A stretch of DNA of 64,000 nucleotides from Streptomyces gelaticus (GTDB lineage Bacteria; Actinomycetota; Actinomycetes; Streptomycetales; Streptomycetaceae), in assembly GCF_014649535.1 (NCBI RefSeq), contig NZ_BMTF01000003.1, positions 310,001 through 374,000 of the forward strand, in the 5' to 3' direction. Position numbers and translations under genes: made by a program. The notes beneath the pieces were generated by a model. The model was not told where the DNA came from and did no database searches. It saw only the letters and a list, made by a program, of their open reading frames with translations. Positions 49,034 to 55,223 of the stretch are shown here, piece after piece (within the stretch, counting starts at the first letter, position 1; each line of letters starts with the position of its first letter).

Positions 49034-49393
49034 TCAGGACGGTTCGCGATGGCTCGGGGTGCCGGATTCGGCGGCCTTGAGGTCGGCCAGCAGTTCGGCC
49101 TGTCCGGCCAGTACACCGGACAGGATGCTCCGCGCGACCCGCAGCAGCTCCGCGACCTGTGGATTGGCCAGCGAGTAGTAGACGGCCGAGCCCTCCCGGC
49201 GGGGGAGGACGAGGTTGGCCCGGCGCAGGACCGCCAGCTGCTGGGAGAGGTGAGCCGCCTCCACGCCGATCTCGGTCAGCATCTCGGAGACCGCGTGCTC
49301 CCGCTCGCTCAGGAGCTCGAGCACTCTGATCCGCACCGGGTGGCCCAGCGTTTTGAAGAATTCGGCCTTCAGCTGGTACAGCGGCGCGCTCAC
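49034..49393 (-). CDS. ArsR-family winged-helix regulator (paralogue 1)
   Basis: 119 residues. wHTH with FFKTLGHPVRIRVLELLSEREHAVSEMLTEIGVEAAHLSQQLAVLRRANLVLPRREGSAVYYSLANPQVAELL. There are no Cys and no CVC or CxGC metal site, so it is not a classical arsenic or cadmium sensor. It closely resembles the second ArsR at 52214-52555 (PLYQ-KAEFF, LGHPVRIRVLELL, LSQQLAVLRR). The GTG start overlaps the stop of a possible 32-codon upstream frame, and its own ribosome site is weak. A nested palindrome (49520-49559) with ATTGC...GCAAT arms lies upstream. Confidence 0.87.
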   Translation of the reverse strand: MSAPLYQLKAEFFKTLGHPVRIRVLELLSEREHAVSEMLTEIGVEAAHLSQQLAVLRRANLVLPRREGSAVYYSLANPQVAELLRVARSILSGVLAGQAELLADLKAAESGTPSHREPS

Positions 49394-49488
49394 CGCACCC
49401 GCCCCGTGCCCATGAGGGCCGTCGGGCTGCCGGACGCCCGCTGTCGTGCGTGCACCACGCATCGCATCCACCCAGAACTCTTCACCAT
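49390..49488 (-). CDS. Possible 32-residue upstream ORF coupled to ArsR
   Basis: ATG at 49488 with GAGGA upstream opens a 32-codon frame (MVKSSGWMRCVVHARQR...) that ends in TGA overlapping the ArsR GTG start (GTGA). The overlap would let ribosomes re-initiate on ArsR, which lacks a good site of its own. The peptide itself resembles nothing known. Confidence 0.3.
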   Translation of the reverse strand: MVKSSGWMRCVVHARQRASGSPTALMGTGRVR

Positions 49489-50073: not shown

Positions 50074-50505
50074 TCAGGGGGTCTTCCGAAGGGGGAGGGT
50101 GATCCAGATGCTCTTGCCCCGGCCGTCCGCGTCGCCCCGGACGATCGCGGTGCCGCCCAGGCCGAGGGTGAGTTCCATGACGGTGTCCAGTCCGCCGCCA
50201 CCGGTCCCGGCGACTGCCAGCGGGGGCCGGTACGGGTGGCGGTCGTGGACGGCGAACACGAACGTGTCCTGGCCGGCCGCGTAGATCACGGTGACGTTCG
50301 GGGATGTCGGGGCCGCGTGCCGGACGCTGTTGGTCACCAGCTCGGAAAGGATCAACAGGGCCGGATCGACGGCGGGGTCGCGTCGGCTGATGCCCCACTC
50401 CGCGAGGACCTGTTCGGTGGTCTCGCGGGCGATCCGTACGGCCGAGCCCATCGTGGGCAGGGTCAGGACGTGCCGCAGGGGCAGGGCGTCGAGCTGGGCG
50501 CTCAC
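50074..50505 (-). CDS. RsbW-like ATP-binding protein (anti-sigma-type kinase)
   Basis: 143 residues, GTG start. GHKL ATPase fold: ILSELVTNSVRHA (N-box), VHDRHPYRPPL, GGGLDTVMELTLGLGGTAIVRGDADGRGKSIWITLPL (G-boxes). Streptomyces has many such proteins, relatives of SpoIIAB/RsbW that bind sigma factors or phosphorylate STAS proteins. It overlaps the SulP transporter gene by 4 bp; that transporter has its own STAS domain, a possible partner. No sigma-factor gene is adjacent. Confidence 0.85.
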   Translation of the reverse strand: MSAQLDALPLRHVLTLPTMGSAVRIARETTEQVLAEWGISRRDPAVDPALLILSELVTNSVRHAAPTSPNVTVIYAAGQDTFVFAVHDRHPYRPPLAVAGTGGGGLDTVMELTLGLGGTAIVRGDADGRGKSIWITLPLRKTP

Positions 50506-52217
50506 CGGACGGCCTCGGCGGTATCGGGGGCGGCGGGCAGGACTCCGGTCCGGTGCAGGTGGGCACGGGCCGCGGCGATGGCCTCGGGCGTGGTGGCGTA
50601 CTCCCGGCCCTCCCGGCGGAGCAGGTCCAGCGCGCCGACCGATTCAAGAGTCCGGCGCTGACCTGGGCGTACCCCGGAGGTCAGCACGGCTATGCCGCGC
50701 CGGTTCAGTTTCTCCACGGCGTCCTTGAGGACCAGGGCGCCGGTGGCGTCCATCGTCGATACGCGCGACATGCGCAGGATGACCACCCGCACGTCGGCGA
50801 CCTCGCTCAGCTCCAGGAGGAAGCGGTGGGCGCCGGCGAAGAACAGCGGCCCGTCGATGCGGTACGCGACGATGTGCTCGGCCAGCAGCGCGTGCTCCTC
50901 GTCGCTGTGCTCGCCGGGCAGATCCGCTCTGAAATCGACCTGGTCCATCCGGGCCTGACCGGCGACCGCCCGCAGCGCCAGGGCGCCCGCCACAGCCAGG
51001 CCGATGATCACGGCGTACACCAGGTCGAGCACGAGCGTGGCGGCGGCGGTCAGCACCAGCACGATCGCGTCCGAGCGGGTCGCACGGGCCATCGCCCGCA
51101 GCGCACCGACCTCCACCATCCGGATCGCGGTCGCCAACAGCACCCCGGCGAGCGCGGCCAGCGGGATCCTGGAGACGAGCGGGGCTGCGGCGAAGACGAT
51201 CACGGCCAGGACGGCAGCGTGGGTGAGGGCGGCGAGCCGGGAGCCCGCGCCGGTCCGGACGTTGACAGCGGTACGGGCGATCGCCGCGGTGGCGGGGACT
51301 CCGCCGAACAGCGGGGCCGCCAGGTTCGCGATGCCCTGCCCGAACAACTCCTTGTCCGGATCATGCTGCTGACCCACCGTCATGCCGTCCGCGACAGTCG
51401 CCGACAGCAGCGACTCCAGCGCGGCAAGTGCCGCGACCGCGACGGCAGGGGCGAGCAGCGACCCCAGCGCGGACAGGTCGAGGAAGCCGAGGGAGGGCGC
51501 GGGCAGACCGGAGGGCAGGTCGCCGATCGGGGTGGCCGCGTCCAGGTGGAAGAGCTGAGCCGCGAGGGTGGCGGCGATCACCGCGATGATGGAGAAGGGG
51601 ACGGTGGGCCGCCACCGGGCACCCAGCAGCATCACGGCCGCCACGCCCACGGCGAGGGCGACGGCGGTCCAGTTCGGGGTCCGTACGAACTCCTCGGTTG
51701 CGCGCCAGGCCACCACCAGGACCTTGTCGCCCTCCGGTTCGGCGACCCCCAGCGCGTTCGGCACCTGCTGGAGACCGATGACGCACGCGATACCGAGCGT
51801 GAAGCCCTCCACCACCGGCGCCGGGATGTAGCGCATGGAGCGGCCGGCCTTCAGCAGCGCGAGCACGATCAGCAGCACGCCTGCCATCAGCCCGACCGTC
51901 AGCACCCCGCCCGGCCCGTACTGGGCCATGATCGGCACCAGCACCACCGTCATCGCCCCGGTCGGCCCGGACACCTGGAGGTTGGAGCCACCGAACAGCG
52001 CCGCCAGTGCGCCCGCCACCACGGCGGTCGCCAGCCCCGCCCCGGCACCGAGCCCGGAGGAGACGCCGAAGCCCAGGGCGAGCGGCAGCGCGACGACGGC
52101 GACGGTCAGACCGGCGAGCAGATCACGACGCGGGTTGCGGCCCATGACCGCGAAGTCGGCGCGGGCGGGCAGCAGGGAAGCGACCCGGCCCCAGGACCGG
52201 GCGAGCACGGTACTCAC
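50502..52217 (-). CDS. SulP-family anion transporter with STAS domain
   Basis: 571 residues. The membrane part (about 1-420) starts with DLLAGLTVAVVALPLALGFGVSSGLGAGAGLATAVVAGALAALFGGSNLQVSGPTGAMTVVL, the SulP/SLC26 signature; about 12-14 segments. The cytoplasmic STAS domain (about 445-550) has VRVVILRMSRVSTMDATGALVLKDAVEKLNRRGIAVLTSG; the residue at the phospho-acceptor position is Thr in MDATGA. Family members carry sulfate, bicarbonate or C4-dicarboxylates; the ion is not known here. It overlaps the ArsR stop and the RsbW-like start by 4 bp each, forming a three-gene operon. Confidence 0.88.
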   Translation of the reverse strand: MSTVLARSWGRVASLLPARADFAVMGRNPRRDLLAGLTVAVVALPLALGFGVSSGLGAGAGLATAVVAGALAALFGGSNLQVSGPTGAMTVVLVPIMAQYGPGGVLTVGLMAGVLLIVLALLKAGRSMRYIPAPVVEGFTLGIACVIGLQQVPNALGVAEPEGDKVLVVAWRATEEFVRTPNWTAVALAVGVAAVMLLGARWRPTVPFSIIAVIAATLAAQLFHLDAATPIGDLPSGLPAPSLGFLDLSALGSLLAPAVAVAALAALESLLSATVADGMTVGQQHDPDKELFGQGIANLAAPLFGGVPATAAIARTAVNVRTGAGSRLAALTHAAVLAVIVFAAAPLVSRIPLAALAGVLLATAIRMVEVGALRAMARATRSDAIVLVLTAAATLVLDLVYAVIIGLAVAGALALRAVAGQARMDQVDFRADLPGEHSDEEHALLAEHIVAYRIDGPLFFAGAHRFLLELSEVADVRVVILRMSRVSTMDATGALVLKDAVEKLNRRGIAVLTSGVRPGQRRTLESVGALDLLRREGREYATTPEAIAAARAHLHRTGVLPAAPDTAEAVR

Positions 52218-52555
52218 TCCGCAGCGACCTCGGCTTCCCGCAGCTCGGCCAGGAGTTCGTTCCGCCCGGCCAGCATCTCGGTGAGGATCCGGCGCGCGGC
52301 CCGCATCAGCTCCGCCACGTCCCCGCCGGGCAGCTCGTACACCACGGTCGAGCCCTCTCTGGCCGAGGTCACGATGCCGGAGCGGCGCAGCACGGCCAGC
52401 TGCTGGGACAGCGCCGACGGCTCCACCTCGATCGCGGTCAGCAGATCGCGTACCGGCATGGGACCGTCCTGGAGCAGCTCCAGGACGCGTATGCGGACCG
52501 GGTGTCCGAGCATCCGGAAGAACTCGGCCTTGGCCTGGTACAGCGGAACCGGCAC
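52214..52555 (-). CDS. ArsR-family winged-helix regulator (paralogue 2), first gene of the SulP operon
   Basis: 113 residues from a GTG with GGAGGGAG upstream. wHTH MLGHPVRIRVLELLQDGPMPVRDLLTAIEVEPSALSQQLAVLRRSGIVTSAREGSTVVYELPGGDVAELM. No Cys and no known metal site. It is a paralogue of the ArsR 3 kb away. The AATTGC-N8-GCAATT palindrome at 52651-52670 is the likely operator; it would repress its own operon with the SulP transporter. The signal is unknown. Confidence 0.87.
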   Translation of the reverse strand: MPVPLYQAKAEFFRMLGHPVRIRVLELLQDGPMPVRDLLTAIEVEPSALSQQLAVLRRSGIVTSAREGSTVVYELPGGDVAELMRAARRILTEMLAGRNELLAELREAEVAAE

Positions 52556-52602
52556 GGTTCTCGGACTCCCTCCACCATCCGGATGCCCCGGGATGCCTTG
52601 TC

Positions 52603-52634
52603 GGCCGTGCCCGCGGCTACCTGCGGGCACGGCC
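52603..52634. other. 12-bp perfect hairpin in the ArsR-SulP leader
   Basis: GGCCGTGCCCGC and GCGGGCACGGCC pair perfectly around an 8-base loop. It lies between the ArsR operator and the start codon of the minus-strand operon, so it would form in the leader RNA; it could be an attenuator or a terminator for the opposite direction. Confidence 0.5.
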
Positions 52635-52650
52635 CGTACAGCATGTAGTG

Positions 52651-52670
52651 AATTGCAGAATTTCGCAATT
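52651..52670. promoter_or_regulatory. ArsR-type operator, AATTGC-N8-GCAATT
   Basis: A perfect 6+8+6 palindrome, 96-115 bp upstream of the ArsR-SulP operon start. A+T-rich in a G+C-rich setting, with the same half-sites as the palindrome upstream of the paralogous ArsR. Confidence 0.65.
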
Positions 52671-52768
52671 AATGGATTCGTGGAGAGTTTGGCTGCCGTG
52701 ACGAATGAAGGCCGGCGGGGTCTCCCGTGAGCAGGGGCCGACTTCGTGGTGCCATGCACTGGCCATGC

Positions 52769-52785
52769 ATACCCCATGGGGGTAT
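52769..52785. promoter_or_regulatory. CsoR-like operator
   Basis: ATACCCC-ATG-GGGGTAT is a perfect 7+3+7 palindrome of the TACCC/GGGTA type bound by CsoR/RcnR-family regulators. It lies 48-64 bp upstream of the MFS start, where it could overlap the promoter. A half-site-like GATACCCCCC follows at about 52799-52808. No csoR gene is in the window. Confidence 0.6.
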
Positions 52786-52832
52786 ATTCGCGATGCGTAG
52801 ATACCCCCCTCCTGTATAGGAGTGTGTTTGCA

Positions 52833-54287
52833 GTGACCGCATCAACCGCACCAACCGCATCAACCGATTCGCGGAGATGGTCCGCGCTCGCGCTGATCGC
52901 CCTGGCTCAGTTCATCGTCATCATGGATACGTCGATCATCGGCGTGGCCCTGCCCGAGATGCAGGCCGACCTGGGCTTCTCCCAGGAGAACCTGTCGTGG
53001 GTGTTCAACGCCTACGTCGTCGCCTTCGGAGGGCTGCTGCTGCTCGGCGGGCGGCTGTCCGACCTGCTCGGCGCCAGGCGCCTGTTCAGTGCCGGATGGA
53101 TCGTCCTCGCCGCGGGCTCCCTCACCGCCGGTCTCGCGGGTGAGGTCTGGGTCGAGCTGACCGGGCGGGCCCTCCAGGGTGTGGGCGCCGCGCTGATCGC
53201 CCCGTCCGCGCTCACCCTGCTGATGACGCTGTTCGGCTCCCGGCCCCAGGAGCTGGGGAAGGCCTTCGCGCTGTACGGTGCGGCCGCCCCGGCCGGCGGC
53301 ACCGCCGGAGTCTTCCTCGGCGGGGTCATCACCCAGTACGCCAGCTGGCCCTGGGTGTTCTACATCAACATCCCCGTCGCGCTGATCGTCCTGGTCGCCA
53401 CGCCCGCCGTCATGCCTCCGGGCGCGGGGCGGCGCGGCTCGATCGACCTGGCCGGCGCGGTCACCGTCACGGCGGGCCTCGCCGCCGCCGTCTACGCCAT
53501 CGTCCGTGCCCCCGAGACCGGTTGGGGCTCCGCCGAGACCTGGCTGGTCCTCCTGGCAGGTGCGGCACTGATCGCCGCGTTCGTCGCGATCCAGTCCAAG
53601 CGGCGCGAGCCGCTGATGCGGCTGGGGATCTGGCGGGCGCCCAACCTGGCCGGTGCCAACATCGCCCAGCTGCTCATGGCCGCCGCGTGGATACCCATGT
53701 GGTTCTTCCTCAACCTCTATCTGCAGCAGGTCCTGGGACTGGGCGCCTTCGCCTCCGGCTCCGCGCTGCTGCCCATGACCGTCGCCATCATGATCATGAT
53801 GATCGTCCTGGCGCCGCGCCTGATCTCCCGGTTCGGCCCCAAGCCCCTCATCGTCATCGGGCTCCTCGCGCTCGGCGCGGGTATGTTCTGGCTCTCGCTG
53901 GCCCGGCCGGACGGAAACTTCCTCGTCGACGTCCTGCCCGCCTCGCTGCTCTCGGCGGTGGGCATGTCGCTGGCGTTCATCCCCTCGCTCGGCACCGCGC
54001 TCTCCAGTGCCCGCCCGGAGGAGGGCGGCCTCGCCTCGGGGATCGTCAACACCAGCTACCAGGTCGGCTCCGCCCTCGGCCTGGCCGCCATGACCGCGCT
54101 CGCCGCCGCGCACGGCGCCCGCGAACTCGGTGACCCGGTGGCCCTCACCGACGGCTTCTCCGCCGCCTTCCTCGGAGCCGCGGCCCTTGCCGTGGTCGGT
54201 GCCATCGCCGCCCTGCTCACCCTGCGCACCGCACCCGCCGCCGAAGGCGCGGGCAGCGATGAAGCACCGGAAAAGGCCGCAGCCTGA
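52833..54287 (+). CDS. DHA2-type MFS exporter
   Basis: 484 residues from a GTG with AGGAG about 10 bases upstream. Fourteen hydrophobic segments; FIVIMDTSIIGVALPEM (motif D1), LGGRLSDLLGARRLFSAG (motif A) and LYGAAAPAGGTAGVFLGGVI (motif C). It exports an unknown drug-like compound by proton antiport. The promoter region is A+T-rich and carries a perfect CsoR-like palindrome, which suggests control by a metal- or sulfur-responsive CsoR relative, or another regulator with the same kind of site. It is divergent from the ArsR-SulP operon. Confidence 0.87.
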   Translation: MTASTAPTASTDSRRWSALALIALAQFIVIMDTSIIGVALPEMQADLGFSQENLSWVFNAYVVAFGGLLLLGGRLSDLLGARRLFSAGWIVLAAGSLTAGLAGEVWVELTGRALQGVGAALIAPSALTLLMTLFGSRPQELGKAFALYGAAAPAGGTAGVFLGGVITQYASWPWVFYINIPVALIVLVATPAVMPPGAGRRGSIDLAGAVTVTAGLAAAVYAIVRAPETGWGSAETWLVLLAGAALIAAFVAIQSKRREPLMRLGIWRAPNLAGANIAQLLMAAAWIPMWFFLNLYLQQVLGLGAFASGSALLPMTVAIMIMMIVLAPRLISRFGPKPLIVIGLLALGAGMFWLSLARPDGNFLVDVLPASLLSAVGMSLAFIPSLGTALSSARPEEGGLASGIVNTSYQVGSALGLAAMTALAAAHGARELGDPVALTDGFSAAFLGAAALAVVGAIAALLTLRTAPAAEGAGSDEAPEKAAA

Positions 54288-54377
54288 AAGGGGGCGGCTG
54301 TCCATCGATGACCGAGGACGGGCGGCGCCTGCCGCCGAGGGTGGATCTCCGCCCCGGCAGCGGACGCCGCCCGCCCG

Positions 54378-55223
54378 TCACCCGGGTCGTCGGGCGGTCA
54401 CCAGCAGGGCGGCGGTGCGGAGTCGGAGTGCGCCCTCCCGTTCGTGGGGGCTCAGGAGGTCGACGAGCCTGCGCCGGGCCCGGTCCCGGACGTCCTTTCC
54501 GGCCTGGTCGATCAGGTACCGGCCGGGGCCGGAGTCCAGCAGGAATCCGGCGGCGTCGGCGGCGTCCCGGCCCCAGGTTCCGTACGCTTCGGCAGGCGCG
54601 GTGCCGACCGCCTCGTACCCGGCGCGGGACAGTACGTCGCGTACGGTCGCCGGGTCGGCCAGCGAGAACATGCCGGGGCCTCCCGGAGCGCCCAGTCCAC
54701 CGACGGGCAGCAGGTCGCGCAGCCCCTGCATGGCCAGCAGCCACTCGGTCCGGCCGGGCTCCGCGGGGCAGACGAAGGCGATGCGGCCGCCGGGGCGCAG
54801 CGCCCGCCCGATGTTGGCGAACGCGGCGACGGGATCGGCGAAGAACATCACCCCGAAACGGCTGATGGCCACGTCGAAGGTCCCGGCACCGAACGGATGG
54901 ACCTGGGCGTCCGCCTGTTCGAACGCGACATTGCCGAGCGCCTCACGCCGCGCGGACTCCCGCGCACGGGCCAGCATCGGCGCCGACAGATCGAGCCCCA
55001 GTGCCCGCCCGTCGCTCGCCCGCCGGGCGGCGAGACGGGTGGTGCACCCCGCCCCGCAGCCGATGTCGAGGACGCGGTCCCCCTCGGCGATCGCCGCGGC
55101 GGTGAGCAGGGGTTCATTGAATCCCGCGTTCACGCTGTCCCAACGGGCCTGGTGGGTGGCCCAGTAGGTCCCCTCGTAGCCGTTCCACGCCTGCTCCTGC
55201 TCTTTGTTGGCGATGTGTCTCAT
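54378..55223 (-). CDS. SAM-dependent methyltransferase (UbiE-like)
   Basis: 281 residues. Motif I VLDIGCGAGCTTRLAARRA, acidic end of strand 2 ALGLDLSAPML, FGAGTFDVAISRFGVMFFADPVAAFANIGRALRPGGRIAFV (motifs II-III). The N-terminal NGYEGTYWATHQARWDSVN is characteristic of small-molecule C- or O-methyltransferases of actinobacteria. The substrate is unknown. It is divergent from a TetR gene with two tandem ATGGGC-N4-GCCCAT operators between them, so it is almost certainly that regulator's target. It starts with ATG 73 bp from the nearer operator edge at 55296 and 51 bp from the other. Confidence 0.85.
   Translation of the reverse strand: MRHIANKEQEQAWNGYEGTYWATHQARWDSVNAGFNEPLLTAAAIAEGDRVLDIGCGAGCTTRLAARRASDGRALGLDLSAPMLARARESARREALGNVAFEQADAQVHPFGAGTFDVAISRFGVMFFADPVAAFANIGRALRPGGRIAFVCPAEPGRTEWLLAMQGLRDLLPVGGLGAPGGPGMFSLADPATVRDVLSRAGYEAVGTAPAEAYGTWGRDAADAAGFLLDSGPGRYLIDQAGKDVRDRARRRLVDLLSPHEREGALRLRTAALLVTARRPG

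Follow-up and report, generated by a model that had tools for sequence, protein, structure and literature searches.

A palindrome with the form of a CsoR operator (site 1) lies in front of an MFS exporter gene in the window, that is, the whole 64-kb stretch of DNA analysed here. A degenerate second site of the same type (site 2) follows in the leader of the gene, and the gene after the exporter is on the opposite strand. On the other side, the genes for an ArsR-type regulator and a SulP anion transporter form a divergent operon (Table 1).

Table 1. Features around the exporter gene of the window, and genes with a CsoR-type site on other contigs of the same genome
Feature	Position	Strand	Remarks
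SulP/STAS anion transporter	50502-52217	-	apart from the copper unit
ArsR-type regulator	52214-52558 (about)	-	no cysteine; apart from the copper unit
Predicted promoter TGGCCA-17-TATATT	52760-52788	+	sole promoter-like match in 52500-54500 on both strands; 0.1 expected
Site 1, predicted CsoR-type operator ATACCCCATGGGGGTAT	52769-52785	.	perfect 7-bp arms, 3-bp spacer, TAC-N9-GTA
Site 2, degenerate CsoR-type site ATACCCCCCTCCTGTAT	52801-52817	.	3 mismatches; TAC-N9-GTA kept
Likely ribosome-binding site AGGAG	52818-52822	+	directly after site 2, inside the inverted repeat 52809-52822
MFS exporter gene	52833-54287	+	start GTG at 52833; 484 aa, 14 predicted helices, no cysteine
copZ-copA	contig C28		17-mer site in front
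Second copA	contig C39		17-mer site in front
Secreted His-rich protein gene	contig C30		17-mer site in front
DUF4396 gene	contig C2, site 89103-89119 (L001)		perfect CsoR-type site nearby
csoR	contig C16		ATACCCCTGGTGGGTAT in front

An earlier note, made from the letters of the window, had pointed to the palindrome ATACCCC-ATG-GGGGTAT, and both its sequence and its coordinates proved exact on re-reading. It is the sole match of its kind in the window at up to two mismatches, against 0.05 expected (mean of 100 shuffles). Site 1 has the traits of a type 2 CsoR operator: it is a TAC-N9-GTA inverted repeat with C/G tracts, and it is located in the predicted promoter of the gene that it would regulate, where it occupies the greater part of the spacer and reaches into the -10 box.

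The note described a single palindrome. That palindrome stands, and site 2, which went unmentioned, has to be added to it. Located 32 bp downstream of site 1 and just 5' of the ribosome-binding site, site 2 has lost the G tract and still has TAC-N9-GTA, and CsoR would be expected to bind there as well. Two such sites 30-38 bp apart are found in 40 of the 79 homologous promoters scored, and the copA site of this genome has a like element 34 bp away. In 16 homologous promoters, a TTGACA hexamer lies at most 16 bases upstream of a site. An inverted repeat, CTCCT-GTAT-AGGAG, was also observed at 52809-52822; as RNA it would fold into a small hairpin that contains the ribosome-binding site and overlaps site 2.

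CsoR-type and CstR-type sites across the genome

At up to two mismatches, the 17-mer occurs at 12 places in the 7.75-Mb genome (five perfect, one with one mismatch and six with two), against two matches for the control pattern read backwards. The perfect copies, all with a 3-bp spacer, are found in front of copZ-copA, the second copA, the gene for the secreted His-rich protein, the DUF4396 gene and the MFS gene. Like other type 2 CsoR operators, site 1 thus belongs to a site class that also stands before csoR and the cop genes of its own genome. A CsoR-type site was also seen between copA and a divergently oriented CutC-family gene (L005, 606-1304, minus strand).

This genome yielded only two CsoR-family genes, one on contig C16 and one on contig C1, and the window is on neither of these contigs. 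The remark in the earlier note that no csoR is near is therefore true in this genome; elsewhere, 27 of 80 loci with a homologous transporter have csoR at most 5 kb away from it. The C16 protein scores 103.3 bits against the CsoR family model PF02583 (cut-off 22.8) and stays below the NCBIfam RicR cut-off (135.2 against 175). It carries Cys/His/Cys residues (YC...HLRHC), which we take to be the copper-type CsoR ligands.

The C1 gene, which adjoins a rhodanese-domain gene, is read by us as CstR-like. Its own site, ATACCCCTTGGGGTAT, has a 2-bp spacer and is one base shorter than the 17-mer. Such 16-mers, searched for with a 2-bp spacer and at most one mismatch, occur in three places, namely in front of the CstR-like gene, at a C14 rhodanese locus (two sites) and at a locus on contig C12; the window site has N9 where the 16-mers have N8. 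A spacer rule, with 3 bp for copper and 2 bp for sulfur, may be drawn from these few sites of one genome and three published S. lividans operators. The C12 locus (G000:C12:28672-28801; L016-L018) holds three 2-bp-spacer sites, evenly placed 57 bp apart, one of which is perfect and two of which have one mismatch. No family was returned there for the one ORF piece scanned (L017:408-593, poorly chosen).

The transporter family, its promoters and its neighbours

The transporter passes the Pfam MFS_1 cut-off (176.2 bits against 33.4) and misses that of TIGR00711, the DHA2/EmrB model (209.3 against 230.2). The earlier note had called it a DHA2 drug exporter; the MFS assignment holds, and the DHA2 part fits by helices and fold, although the dedicated cut-off is missed. 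The structure model (pLDDT 84.3, pTM 0.85) was built on an alignment of 47 of 81 sequences, namely the window protein and 46 of its 80 homologues, and 14 long helices were counted in its element list. The predicted helices, together with an EfpA/QacA-like fold in the model, would fit a DHA2-like protein. In Foldseek, the nearest solved structures are those of EfpA, with 27-28% identity and TM values of 0.82-0.83; at this low identity, EfpA is the nearest known fold and no orthologue. A search with the C-terminal part of the transporter, run for a QacA alignment, returned only NorC.

The family has a sharp edge. Among 393 genomes of the class, with the four best candidates per genome scored, 31 matches reach about 545 bits or more (at least 63% identity), and the next one falls to 343 bits and 45%. 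Within the genus, a match with an E value of 1e-150 or lower was obtained in 21 of 150 genomes, the own genome included; in the others among them the identity is 62-94%. Of 81 proteins, made up of the window protein and its 80 homologues, 80 have no cysteine, compared with 4 of 26 paralogues of the own genome over the aligned stretch; in a second draw, 49 of 50 proteins have none.

Methionine gives a less distinct picture. Nine positions (31, 131, 194, 289, 315, 320, 323, 378 and 420) hold Met in at least 79 of the 81 proteins; at six of them Met is found in 0-2 of the 26 paralogues, and at 315, 320 and 378 in 7-11. The Met content is not clearly raised, with 15.4 per aligned protein in the family against 14.6 in the paralogues, the lengths compared being unequal. 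Conservation of at least 95% is reached by 9 of 15 Met positions, a modest excess over the 230 of 484 positions overall. A copper path through Met is not claimed here as shown, because the content is not clearly raised and the conservation exceeds background only slightly, and the label of a Met-rich copper transporter was dropped for the same reason.

The promoter analysis used the best 80 of 523 homologous stretches and scored 79 promoters, as one locus (L026) had no upstream DNA. The 17-mer is present in 68 of them at up to two mismatches, in 46 at up to one, and in 16 without any. No other spacer length between 0 and 8 is found in more than 8 of the 79. Control windows of the same loci contain the site in 39 of 2772 cases, and part of these hits may be sites of copper genes nearby. 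With one locus counted for each named genus or group, and two for Lentzea, the site is seen in 24 of 33 promoters. The second draw (L129-L178) gave 41 of 50 promoters; some of its species may be those of the first 80 loci, and L129 and L021 agree in both site and spacing.

Outside the family, the site was sought in two sets. None of the promoters of the 43 best-scoring non-members (38-45% identity) has it, the best showing four mismatches; two of these promoters had shorter upstream DNA than wanted. In the own genome, none of the 27 paralogue loci has a site within 1.5 kb at up to three mismatches. Among the transporters compared by sequence, the site is restricted to this family.

Copper genes are frequent neighbours. 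In 45 of the 80 loci, csoR, copZ, copA or the gene for the secreted His-rich protein lies within 5 kb of the transporter gene, and 33 loci have at least two of these; the number of loci rises to 47 when DUF4396 is counted too. A blind clustering of the 911 called ORFs of the 80 loci gave, after the transporter itself, the secreted His-rich protein (29 loci), CopA (28), CsoR (24) and CopZ (24), followed by a DUF305-like family in 7 loci and nothing else in more than 6. In the second draw, 13 of 50 loci have a copper-gene neighbour within 1.5 kb. The site itself is found in 36 of 45 scored promoters with one of the four copper genes near and in 32 of 34 with none. The arrangement of the window, with a lone transporter gene that would answer a distant csoR, is a common one, since 32 of these 34 promoters keep the site.

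The promoters without a site at up to two mismatches number 11 of 79 in the first set and 9 of 50 in the second draw. Nine of the 11 stand beside copper genes, as do five of the nine (within 1.5 kb), and such transporters may be driven by read-through from the copper-gene promoters. The remainder consists of L062, beside DUF4396 only, L074, beside none, and four promoters of the second draw.

Two of the neighbours deserve a description of their own. The commonest one, the secreted His-rich protein (L004, 1521-2513; about 310 aa), has homologues in 33 of the 80 loci. It gave no Pfam or NCBIfam match, its gene has its own CsoR-type site, and it apparently represents an unnamed copper-linked family. 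A DUF4396 gene is near the transporter gene in 5-6 of the 80 loci.

Probable copper control, alternatives and known systems

The palindrome is very probably the operator of the copper sensor CsoR encoded on contig C16, with the gene behind it repressed by CsoR and induced by copper. At low copper, apo-CsoR would occupy site 1 inside the promoter and keep the gene off, presumably blocking RNA polymerase by occlusion; site 2 in the leader would probably help in this repression. On binding Cu(I), CsoR would be released, and the transporter would be made together with copA, copZ and csoR. We infer the identity of the sensor, the direction of control and the derepression from the form of the operator and from the published work on S. 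lividans CsoR. Comparison of loci is the ground for the site, its conservation, its restriction to the family and the habit of the gene to adjoin csoR, copZ and copA. A copper role of the transporter itself is suggested only by the company it keeps.

The CsoR type that the earlier note ascribed to the palindrome is borne out by the TAC-N9-GTA form, by the same site class at csoR, copZ-copA and copA, and by the conservation before homologues. The note also held a link to copper, sulfide or sulfite stress to be conceivable. The copper part of it is well supported and the sulfur part is not, because the site is conserved, copper genes are neighbours and SulP is paired with the transporter in two relatives only; the 3-bp spacer likewise speaks against sulfide.

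What the transporter moves is a separate question. Our own reading, held tentatively and at a little less than even confidence, is a proton-driven exporter of a copper complex or of a copper-mobilising small molecule such as a toxin, which would complement the Cu(I) ATPase. Somewhat less probable is the view that CsoR control is real and the transporter is an ordinary EfpA-like multidrug or lipid pump, whose induction by copper would reflect only envelope damage or the toxic organics that accompany the metal. The fold and the nearest solved relatives, described above, favour such a pump, and efpA is reported as 2.35-fold up in M. tuberculosis without csoR, apparently indirectly (PMC4801387, as excerpted). 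Against this, the sharp edge of the family, its near lack of cysteine and its repeated occurrence in copper clusters suggest a dedicated role, although a dedicated role in copper clusters would still be compatible with a lipid or drug substrate. What likelihood is left after these two readings goes to copper ions alone, or something else, as the substrate. A bolder proposal would see in these proteins an undescribed MFS copper-stress exporter family, at least 62% identical to the window protein in the sampled genomes and widely scattered in Actinomycetota, which exports Cu(I) or a copper complex beside CopA/CopZ and uses membrane Met in place of Cys as the copper path. We regard this as unlikely in its full form.

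The sensor could also be sought on the sulfur side. CstR-type operators resemble CsoR-type operators, and one CstR-like gene, adjoining a rhodanese-domain gene, is present in the genome, so that this persulfide sensor might read the site and the exporter might answer sulfide, sulfite or polysulfide. This is very improbable. The CstR-like gene's own site and both C14 rhodanese sites have a 2-bp spacer (TAC-N8-GTA), whereas the window site has one of 3 bp, and none of the 79 homologous promoters has a 2-bp-spacer site at up to two mismatches. The neighbours are copper genes, and a protein matching the CstR-like protein more closely than CsoR was found in 1 of 80 loci (L073, 63%). Persulfide control was rejected on the spacer and the neighbours.

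Still less credible is a tie to the divergent ArsR-SulP operon, in which the palindrome would serve both sides or a sulfur-stress response. The two genes point away from each other, and their starts are about 280 bp apart. However, SulP and ArsR partners at high identity occur near the transporter in only two of the 80 loci (L023 and L024), which belong to very close relatives, and there they are 1.4-2.1 kb away from it; beyond these, remote relatives were seen, of SulP in L028 and L037 (29%) and of ArsR in L036 (42%). The SulP link was rejected, as this pairing is poorly conserved. Moreover, the ArsR gene has an inverted repeat of its own just upstream, AATTGC-AGAATTTC-GCAATT (N8; 52651-52670), found by eye and likely the operator of the adjacent ArsR. 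Two ArsR-type regulators on the minus strand (49034-49399 and 52214-52558), 61% identical over 109 residues, were observed to flank the SulP/YjdM stretch. That the palindrome is a functionless chance match is practically negligible as an explanation, given the single match in the window against 0.05 expected and the retention of the site in front of homologues (68 of 79 and 41 of 50 promoters), against none of 43 in non-members.

Control of the exporter gene by CsoR, the reading preferred here, has its closest parallel in S. lividans. There, CsoR depends on TAC-N9-GTA and no longer bound once these bases had been swapped; the type 2 operators of csoR, copZA1 and copZA2 share this element and the ATACCCC...GGGGTAT shape with the window site, and the csoR operator is identical to the csoR site of this genome, ATACCCCTGGTGGGTAT (PMC3902906, in the portion available). 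The bound operators of S. lividans are in front of copZA operons and csoR (PMC3902906), whereas in the window two tandem sites precede an MFS exporter gene. In S. coelicolor, SCO1044, SCO3280, SCO4137, SCO6710 and SCO7265 are given as putatively CsoR-repressed, none of which is called MFS in the extract at hand (PMC6414726). Among the matches listed from the openly licensed PubMed Central literature, no paper describes CsoR control of such a transporter, which justifies the surprise of the earlier note at a drug-type exporter behind a CsoR-type site. The CstR-type operators assigned in this genome have the same half-sites and differ in their 2-bp spacer (TAC-N8-GTA).

By sequence and structure, mycobacterial EfpA (8ufd, 8ufe, 8x6x, 9bii), with its MFS fold, is the nearest known protein, but the window family is only 27-28% identical to it, nearly cysteine-free and copper-linked. 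Two MFS proteins of the chalkophomycin cluster, ChmA' (484 aa) and ChmC (478 aa), are 34% and 32% identical to EfpA and have been proposed to give resistance to a copper-binding antibiotic (PMC11085572, in part). Their kinship to the window family, compared by description and not by sequence, is a lead only. The same holds for S. tsukubaensis, where, according to the section consulted, an MFS gene and copZA are in one metal-linked sigma regulon (PMC7730460), again compared by description.

A copper-related MFS protein with Met in transmembrane helices, as in the window protein, is CcoA/CalT (PMC7558416, in extract). CcoA imports copper and draws its Met and His ligands from helices 7 and 8, whereas the window family has no conserved His and is expected to transport outward. 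Of the CcoA/CalT motifs MxxxM and HxxxM (PMC6362234, as excerpted), the latter fails in the window transporter, whose single His is conserved in 22% of the family.

Copper defence in Streptomyces is described, in the parts of the sources available, as CsoR with CopZ/CopA pairs (PMC3902906, PMC6414726). To this picture is added a conserved MFS family that is marked by the same operator and rated by general models as a drug exporter. If these proteins export copper-binding antibiotics, copper sensing would be tied to self-protection in antibiotic producers. If they export copper or copper complexes, they would form a copper-exporting MFS family, in contrast to the importer CcoA of reviewed MFS copper transport (PMC7558416, in extract).
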